A stretch of 34,139 bases of DNA from an uncultured Clostridia bacterium (GTDB taxonomy: Bacteria > Bacillota > Clostridia > Oscillospirales > Ruminococcaceae): assembly GCA_947177735.1 (NCBI GenBank), contig CAMWVP010000016.1:1-34139 (forward strand). The letters are read 5' to 3'. Each line of letters starts with the position of its first letter. Positions within the stretch are counted from its first letter, which is position 1. The position numbers were made by a program, and so were the translations under genes. Below, in pieces: positions 25,312 through 27,746 of this stretch. The notes below the pieces were generated by a model that worked only from the letters and a program-made list of their open reading frames with translations, did not search any database and was not told the DNA's origin.

Positions 25312-26337
25312 TTATTTTAATATCGACGTGTAAAACTCGTCCCACATTTGCAGAACGTGCTTTTTCTCGTAGAATTCGTTTCCGCGCTTTGCGTTAGCCG
25401 CGCCCGCCGCGTAGTAGGAGCTGTCGTCGCGGAGCTTTTTCAGCTCGTTTACAAAGCCCTCGACGCTCTTTTCCCGATAGTAGAAGTCGAACAGTATATC
25501 GTCGTATATCGGCAGGTCGCGCAGCAGTATCGGAATATTGACGCACATCGCCTCGAGGATCGTCATCGGGAACAGCTCGTCGAACGACAGCAGCGCCATA
25601 ACGTCGGCGGCGTTGTACACCTTGTTCATATCCTCGCGCTCGATAATGCCGAGGAACTTCACATTATGCGGCGGATTCTTGACCACCTTGGTAAGCTCGT
25701 CAAAGCCGTCTGACAACCGTCCGAAGCTGAAGCCGCCTGCCCACACGAACTGAACGTCCGGCAGCAGCTCCGCGCACTTGAGAAAGTCGAACGCGCCCTT
25801 GCGCACCTGCAATTGCCCCGCGCACAGCACCGTAAACTTGTCCTCGGGGATTCCCAGCTTGCGGCGAACCTTGAGCTTCTTTTCGGCGGAGATCGGGTGG
25901 AATTGTTCGGTATCCACGAAATTCGGGATATACGTCACCCGCTCGCGCGGTATGCCGTAGCTCTCAAGCGCGTCCTTGAAGTAGGGGTTTACCACGACGA
26001 GCCTGTCCATTATCTTGTAAAATTTTACCATATACGCGTAAAAGACCTTCCGTGCGGGAGCGGGCAGCGCAAGGCTCTGATCCACCGTATCGGGTATCAT
26101 ATGCACGTAGCATACCGACGTTCCCTTGCGGCAGCGCCAGTTCTTCTGAATGAAAAACGACGGGTTTATCGTGTGATAATGCGTGATGTCCGCCGCCATG
26201 TGCGCGTTTTCAAAGATCTCGAATTTATCCGACAGCCCCTCGCGCACAAGCTTGACCTGCTCCATATACGCCGAGCCTACGCCCTGACCCTTGACGCTGG
26301 TCGCCTGAGATACCATATTGATAGTTTTCTTATTCAT
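25312..26337 (-). CDS. GT4-type glycosyltransferase, LafA/BgsB-like glycolipid glycosyltransferase
   Basis: MNKKTINMVSQATSVKGQGVGSAYMEQVKLVREGLSDKFEIFENAHMAADITHYHTINPSFF...VVNPYFKDALESYGIPRERVTYIPNFVD...FDELFPMTILEAM. Confidence 0.85.
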   Translation of the reverse strand: MNKKTINMVSQATSVKGQGVGSAYMEQVKLVREGLSDKFEIFENAHMAADITHYHTINPSFFIQKNWRCRKGTSVCYVHMIPDTVDQSLALPAPARKVFYAYMVKFYKIMDRLVVVNPYFKDALESYGIPRERVTYIPNFVDTEQFHPISAEKKLKVRRKLGIPEDKFTVLCAGQLQVRKGAFDFLKCAELLPDVQFVWAGGFSFGRLSDGFDELTKVVKNPPHNVKFLGIIEREDMNKVYNAADVMALLSFDELFPMTILEAMCVNIPILLRDLPIYDDILFDFYYREKSVEGFVNELKKLRDDSSYYAAGAANAKRGNEFYEKKHVLQMWDEFYTSILK

Positions 26338-26477
26338 ATTTTCTCTCCTTATAAGCAATGGTTACTAAGTAAACACTGATCTGATCGAGGTTTTGATCTT
26401 ATAAAAACGATTTGATCAGTATCTCCCTGAAGCTATGTAGTTACATTATTGCGTTATAAGGAGACGGTCTTGCTCTG

Positions 26478-27505
26478 TTACGGACGCTGATCTCGGAGTT
26501 GGATCGCACGCTCGTATACCGCGGCGAGCTGTCTGCCCGTTTTGGCGAAGCTGCGCTCGCATACGACCCTGTACCCATCCTCAATAAGCGGCGGGAAACG
26601 TTTTTCCAGTATTCCCTCCGCAGCGCGGACGAAATCCTCGAGATCATCGGCGAAGTAGGAATTGTTCCTACCCCCCCCCCGTATGAACAAATCCAACCCG
26701 CGTACACGGGGATATTTCTTAACAACGTTGGGATTTTCATTGCCAAAGCCTCCAGCACGACTATGCCCTCCGTTTCCTCATATGACGGAAACAGGAACAG
26801 GTCGCTGCCCGACAGAGCAGCCCGGAGCGCGGGCTTGTCCACATAGCCCGCGAAAGTGAGGTTAGGCGGCGCGTTCTTGACGGCGTTCCTGACCTCGTGC
26901 CCGACGAGCGCCAAATCGGCGTCGCCGAACCATATAAACTTATACTGCGGCAGTCTCCGCGCTATCTCCGCGAAGTCGTGCACGCCCTTGCGCTTTATCA
27001 GCAGCCCCGCCGACATCACGACTTTGTCCGTTTCGGAAAAGCCGTACCTCTCGCGGAACGCCCTGCTCTCCTGCTCGTCGCGGCGGTAGTACTCGAGGTC
27101 TATGCCGTTGGAAATAACGAAAATTTCCTTTTCGATGCCATAGCCTTGCAGCAGGCGCTTGGAGTATTCGGTAGGCGTGACGATAACGTCGCCGAGACAG
27201 TAGCAGGCGGTTATCCACCGCTTAAACAATCCCGCGGTGAGATTAGCGCCGACGTAGGAGTTGCGGAAATCCTCCCGCGTGGAATGTGCGTGATAAACGA
27301 GCGGCTTGCCCGTTCTGCGGAGCCGTTTTGCGAGCCGATAGGAGTTCGGCAGCACGGTGTTGATATGCACCACGTCCGCCTCGTCAACGCTGTCGACAAG
27401 CGTTATCCCGCAGTCCGACAGGGCCTTCCTCTGATGATAGATAGCCCTCCCGACGCCGCTTTTCGCGATCTTCTTTTGCAGCTCCGAGTAGATGTAAACT
27501 TTCAT
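26478..27505 (-). CDS. GT4-type glycosyltransferase, LafB/CpoA-like, frameshifted at a G10 tract (as assembled the frame runs to 26441)
   Basis: Upstream frame: MKVYIYSELQKKIAKSGVGRAIYHQRKALSDCGI...VHINTVLPNS...HAHSTREDFRNSYVGANL...FLFPSYEETEGIVVLEALAMKIPTLLRNIPVYAGW. After the tract (26671-26680) the likely native C-terminus is in another frame: GGGRNNSYFADDLEDFVRAAEGILEKRF...RAIQLRDQRP*. Confidence 0.82.
26671..26680. repeat. Homopolymer run of 10 C (G10 on coding strand) inside the glycosyltransferase
   Basis: Direct count: ...ttccta CCCCCCCCCC gtatgaac. Confidence 0.95.
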
Positions 27506-27584: not shown

Positions 27585-27746
27585 GAACTTATTCTCATAG
27601 CCCGAAATGCTCGGATTTCGAAGCAAATTTTTTCGAGGACAAGGAAAAGCGACGCAGACGTACTGTATGTACGTCAAGGAGCTTTGACGCAGTACTCGGG
27701 AAAATTTGCCGAAAGACGGGCGTTGAGCGGCTATGAGAATAAGTTC
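27585..27746. repeat. Palindromic MITE-like element, copy E3
   Basis: Ends GAACTTATTCTCATAGCC...GGCTATGAGAATAAGTTC. Core CGCAGACGTACTGTATGTACGTCAAGGAGCTTTGACGCAG. Shares CGAAATGCTCGGATTTCGAAGC with E5. Confidence 0.9.

Follow-up and report, generated by a model that had tools for sequence, protein, structure and literature searches.

Within the window examined here, a 34,139-nt stretch of contig CAMWVP010000016.1 from an uncultured Clostridia bacterium, a tract of ten G residues lies inside a gene for a LafB-like membrane-glycolipid glycosyltransferase and shifts its 3′ part out of frame. Weighing the sequence comparisons below, we consider it probable (roughly two chances in three) that slipped-strand phase variation at this tract toggles LafB on and off. 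The tract would act as a simple-sequence-repeat contingency site, at which slipped-strand mispairing during replication would change the tract length by one G at a time. Lengths of 8 or 11 G would then yield a full-length enzyme of the LafB/BgsA type (ON), and lengths of 9 or 10 G an inactive enzyme devoid of its C-terminal strand and helices (OFF). As assembled, the 10-G sequence places this genome in the predicted OFF state. Enzymes of this type in other Firmicutes add the second sugar to a membrane glycolipid that serves as the lipoteichoic-acid anchor; we infer that switching is reversible within a population and that the tract affects the membrane glycolipid.

Reading-frame outcomes at the G10 tract

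The features on which the analysis draws are the following.

26671..26680, minus strand: G10 homopolymer, putative slippage site in the lafB-like gene; the only G/C run longer than 5 nt in the window
26441..27505, minus strand: lafB/bgsA/cpoA-like GT4 gene; the 10-G form encodes 354 aa, with the frame lost after the tract (residue 278)
26478..26657, minus strand: native C-terminal coding part, YFADDLEDF...RDQRP, terminated at 26478; conserved among 20 orthologues and not in frame when the tract has 10 G
26658..26692, minus strand: insert-bearing loop, 35 nt, lying between a conserved W codon and a conserved Y codon
27546..27574, minus strand: sigma-70/A consensus promoter TTGACA-17-TATAAT with 12/12 matches (a consensus match only), 40 nt before the ATG (27505)
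25315..26337, minus strand: LafA-like GT4 glycosyltransferase, second gene, downstream of the lafB-like gene

Around the tract, the minus strand reads TGG ATT TGT TCA TAC GGGGGGGGGG TAG GAA CAA TTC CTA C. The G10 tract was confirmed, and translations computed for 7–13 G reproduced each of the frame outcomes that the initial annotation had assigned to 8, 9, 10 and 11 G. With 8 or 11 G, the product is 341 or 342 aa long, ends in RNNSYFADDLEDF...RDQRP and stops at 26478; with 9 or 12 G, it is 278 or 279 aa long and stops directly after the tract; and with 7, 10 or 13 G, it continues out of frame to a stop at 26441 (353, 354 or 355 aa). The locus is an intragenic homopolymer of a length at which hypermutability is expected, and that length sets the frame. 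Three outcomes had been proposed, and three products were indeed computed, but in practice these amount to one ON form and two kinds of OFF.

A chance origin of G10 is ruled out by the run-length spectrum of the 34-kb window. All other G/C runs are at most 5 nt long (11176, 2504, 495, 99 and 15 runs of lengths 1 to 5, respectively), and an extrapolation of this decay predicts about 0.001 runs of at least 10 nt. Across the 3.36-Mb assembly, G10 is also the sole G/C run of at least 9 nt located away from contig ends. A contig-end poly-G artefact was likewise rejected, since G runs of at least 9 nt on four other contigs all lie near the contig ends beside low-complexity junk, and G10 is not so placed. 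As a separate observation on this assembly, three contigs (G000:C2:70173, C9:45061 and C157:7158; loci L001, L004 and L012) end within about 100 bp of a common motif, ATTGCTCCGCCAAT..ATATTTCCG..TCAAAGCTTTT, which is followed by G runs and junk and probably marks an assembly break at a repeat.

Gene identity, context and predicted structure

In what follows, the genome of this window is designated G000, and the key relatives are G020 (CAMNXF010000001.1), G023 (UBA7135, DKXD01000038.1) and G049 (JAIEDJ010000142.1). The part of the protein encoded before the tract contains GT4 domains (Pfam), and its best NCBIfam hit is NF053513, which represents IagA/BgsA glycosyltransferases that make the LTA glycolipid anchor. 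Against a model cut-off of 460 bits, the tract-free orthologue of G019 scores 463.4 bits, the in-frame protein of G020 falls just under the cut-off at 448.2 bits, and the window protein up to the tract reaches 401.9 bits. The E-x7-E motif (E244 and E252) is invariant in 29 homologues, and the adjacent LafA-like GT4 gene completes a pair that is also present in G020 and G023. GT4 domains, the E-x7-E motif and a LafA-like neighbour together characterize LafB/BgsA/IagA enzymes, and with one in-frame orthologue above the family cut-off and another just below it, the original assignment to a LafB/CpoA-like glycolipid glycosyltransferase is upheld.

The perfect TTGACA-17-TATAAT consensus upstream suggests that the lafB-like gene is expressed. 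Between this promoter and a HAD gene lies a 162-bp MITE-like element (27585-27746) with perfect 16-bp terminal inverted repeats (GAACTTATTCTCATAG); a second full-length copy with the same spacing is found at G000:C168:3098-3259, and single ends occur in C24, C81 and C187. Orthologues of lafB were detected in 23 of 43 genus genomes, and because only 16 of the 27 good-quality genomes carry one, the OFF state is probably viable.

An AlphaFold2 model of the in-frame G020 protein was built with 29 aligned homologues (mean pLDDT 92.4, pTM 0.89). The sole segment with a pLDDT below 50, residues 276-278, belongs to the glycine run and sits in a long loop leading up to strand 284-286. This strand and helices 289-300, 308-316 and 320-341 all come after the tract; in the OFF forms they are missing or give way to other sequence, and these forms are predicted to be inactive.

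Variation at the tract among relatives and constraint on the tail

Twenty orthologues of the genus, from one genome per species, were compared in detail. In 16 of these, the stretch separating the conserved W and Y codons is an in-frame loop of 18 or 21 nt; the other four, all from separate assemblies, bear a G-rich insert that brings the loop to 35-36 nt. The 36-nt loop of G020 contains 11 G and is in frame. In contrast, the loops of G000 and G049 are 35 nt long with 10 G, that of G023 is 35 nt long with GGGGGAGGG (G5AG3, no pure long tract), and all three are out of frame, each being one base short of the 36 nt of G020. No G run of at least 6 was found in other orthologues beyond the tract bearers (89 orthologues checked). 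Because a G-rich insert recurs at this very codon in three other species, chance, or an artefact of one assembly, is an unlikely source. Tract length thus differs between homologues and both frame states are represented, a variation seen between species only.

The initial annotation, which had proposed phase variation, named a short non-repetitive sequence in relatives, combined with one fixed length in this strain, as one of two findings that would speak against it. Such a sequence is present in most relatives but not in three other species. The proposal is supported in part: it gains relatives with 11 G in frame and 10 G out of frame, together with the selected tails described below.

Tract bearers do not form one clade on either the LafB or the MutS tree, and tract presence requires four changes on each, with moderate support; a single origin of the tract is thus not supported. 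On these trees, the tract would be either old with several losses or repeatedly gained, and the branch support does not separate these two histories. A recent interspecies transfer of the segment around the tract was discarded, as local DNA identity is high (0.8) yet within the range of the gene (maximum 0.9). Because a 14-nt insertion into a 21-nt loop gives 35 nt directly, the 35-nt OFF length may be original, with the extra base of G020 having restored the frame.

In each of the three OFF genomes, the native tail beyond the tract stays free of stops, for 59, 58 and 66 codons. Pairwise comparisons between OFF tails show an excess of synonymous differences over the neutral expectation (G000-G023, p = 2.6e-4; G000-G049, p = 5.3e-4; G023-G049, p = 2.5e-3), and comparing the tail of G000 with those of G020, G019 and G049 gives dN/dS values of about 0.12-0.14, which are rough because synonymous sites are near saturation. 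These patterns indicate that the downstream part is kept by purifying selection even though it is out of frame, and that it has been in use most of the time since the lineages parted, which does not by itself imply present-day use.

Proposed slipped-strand switching and its alternatives

Slippage at the tract is not boosted by a lack of mismatch repair, as mutS is full-length in 40 of 43 genus genomes, this one included; missing mismatch repair was accordingly rejected as a cause. Two further observations count against switching. The 35-nt loop, one base short, is shared by three OFF orthologues, an offset that random switching would not predict in common, and the G5AG3 sequence of G023 should slip rarely, yet this genome is OFF with a conserved tail. 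The same one-base deficit in three OFF genomes, one of them without a long homopolymer, leaves room for recoding or a recently dead gene.

Under recoding, the 35-nt form would be the normal one, and some full-length LafB would be made via -1 ribosomal frameshifting or RNA polymerase slippage on the G run. The same -1 shift would be needed in all three out-of-frame genomes, whose tails are under selection, and ribosomes are prone to slip on poly-G (G GGG GGG); in the window, a 7-bp stem with a 3-nt loop (GTAGGAA/TTCCTAC) also overlaps the tract end. However, G020 is plainly in frame, and other split genes of the genus require shifts both ways. The corresponding site of G023, CAG GGG GAG GGT ATA, is a poor slippery heptamer; neither the conserved heptamer nor the stimulatory structure of programmed -1 frameshifting was found at this locus. 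RNA structure as a frameshift stimulator was itself rejected, the downstream fold being no better than shuffles in 4/4 tract bearers (z -1.0 to +0.1). Recoding is unlikely on this evidence, and it is the strongest of the alternatives.

A recently fixed loss of function, in which the tract would be a mutational accident and lafB a young pseudogene of this lineage, appears slightly less probable again. The gene is absent from 11 of the 27 good genus genomes and hence dispensable, and the interrupted tract of G023 looks frozen in the OFF state; set against this, three separate OFF lineages keep a stop-free, selected tail, and in one species of the group this tract leaves the gene in frame.

We regard as least probable a homopolymer sequencing or assembly error concealing a true tract of 11 (or 8) G: the length of a poly-G run can be wrong in a MAG, PCR stutter is prone to drop one base from such runs, which would match the shared offset, and this assembly is fragmented (247 contigs) with junk-like G runs near contig ends, but G023 is out of frame although it has no long homopolymer, the tract recurs in separate assemblies, offsets in other genes run both ways, and an error would cancel the OFF call alone and leave a hypermutable tract in place.

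Other G/C tracts in the genus and order

G/C runs of at least 9 nt were inspected in about 25 genomes of the genus and order (80 stretches), a non-random and uncontrolled set. Several genes are split by such a tract, and one Pfam family is recognized before and after it in different frames: N6/N4 DNA methyltransferases (a C10 tract in genome G019, a G11 tract in genome G133), HsdS (G10 in genome G003, G9 in genome G133), and both a GT4 glycosyltransferase and a sugar transferase in genome G010 (a G9 tract in each). A serine recombinase of G019 with a C9 tract has its Resolvase domain before the tract and its Recombinase domain after it, and a PAPS-reductase-domain protein with a G12 tract in genome G014 also fits the pattern. 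Tracts that leave the frame intact occur too, for example in ClpP of G020 and GT2 of G075. Frame repair at the split genes would take one base more at some tracts and one base less at others. G runs are not a peculiarity of the genus, as per-genome counts are of similar magnitude throughout the order (roughly 0-15).

Further loci were noted in the course of this inspection. A prophage-like cluster in G019 (L170, G019:C6:124500-132000) encodes three DNA methyltransferases (N6/N4, MT-A70 and C5), all with G/C runs of 9-10, the first of which (N6/N4) is out of frame. In genome G121, two loci (L233 and L237) that also fit the pattern of split genes share near-identical BspA-LRR lipoprotein starts; each is interrupted and out of frame at a G9 tract that directly follows the lipobox cysteine. 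Four close species (G010, G002, G007 and G005; loci L181, L184, L189 and L202) have a sensor-kinase-like gene with C9/C10 at its extreme 3′ end, with lengths of 9, 10, 9 and 10.

The tract-split genes appear to match the usual spectrum of phase-variable genes, which we treat as a lead because the set is non-random and has no control. Phase variation in these gut bacteria has been described mainly via DNA inversion. Whether a poly-G/poly-C contingency repertoire extends across gut Oscillospirales, covering membrane-glycolipid and surface-glycan enzymes, DNA methyltransferases, HsdS and lipoproteins, is a proposition on which we place even odds.

Comparison with known systems

Loss of LafB/BgsA/CpoA in other Firmicutes has been tied to changes in membrane lipids, in biofilm formation, in how cells cope with stress and lyse, and in susceptibility to antibiotics (PMC3083329, PMC3901891, PMC12802148). 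Specifically, BgsA loss in E. faecalis removes diglucosyl-diacylglycerol (PMC3083329), cpoA mutants are devoid of galactosyl-glucosyl-diacylglycerol and show pleiotropic effects (PMC3901891), and lafB loss in E. faecium alters LTA and daptomycin susceptibility (PMC12802148). If slipped-strand switching holds for the gene described here, a group of gut Clostridia would use a one-base switch to bet-hedge how much sugar its membrane and its lipoteichoic-acid anchor contain. Single consensus genomes (MAGs) would then misstate which of these genes work, as annotation treats OFF copies as broken.

Term searches of the open-access literature returned no paper that describes homopolymer switching of lafB/bgsA/cpoA or tracts of this kind in gut Clostridia. 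The gene resembles the known LafB/BgsA/IagA/CpoA diglycosyl-diacylglycerol synthases (PMC3083329, PMC3901891, PMC12802148) in its best-matching family model (NF053513), its full-length alignment and its LafA-like neighbour, and differs from them in the 4-5-residue glycine-rich insert that four species carry after IPVYxxW. The GeneTack survey of complete genomes attributed clusters of frame transitions to phase variation, with glycosyltransferases unmentioned in its main text (PMC3711429); its criteria, a repeat at the frameshift and a surface-related function, fit the lafB-like gene.

Among Firmicutes, a parallel is inlA of Listeria monocytogenes, in which a homopolymer frameshift in a poly(A) tract inactivates the gene and can be restored at high frequency (PMC2831843). 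The inlA tract differs from the present one in being poly(A) and in lying at the 5′ end of the gene. Poly(G) runs are generally under-represented in prokaryotic genes (PMC2831843).

Poly-G and poly-C phase-variable glycosyltransferases and surface-glycan genes are classical in Campylobacter, Helicobacter and Neisseria (PMC8437040, PMC2583950, PMC3068675). The locus described here shares with these an intragenic G/C tract of 9-12, one-base steps between in-frame and truncated glycan enzymes, and differing tract lengths in several related species. It departs from them in its Firmicute host (gut Clostridia/Oscillospiraceae), in concerning a membrane-glycolipid enzyme rather than LOS or capsule, in carrying its tract within the 3′ portion of the coding sequence, and in that switching is here proposed from sequence.
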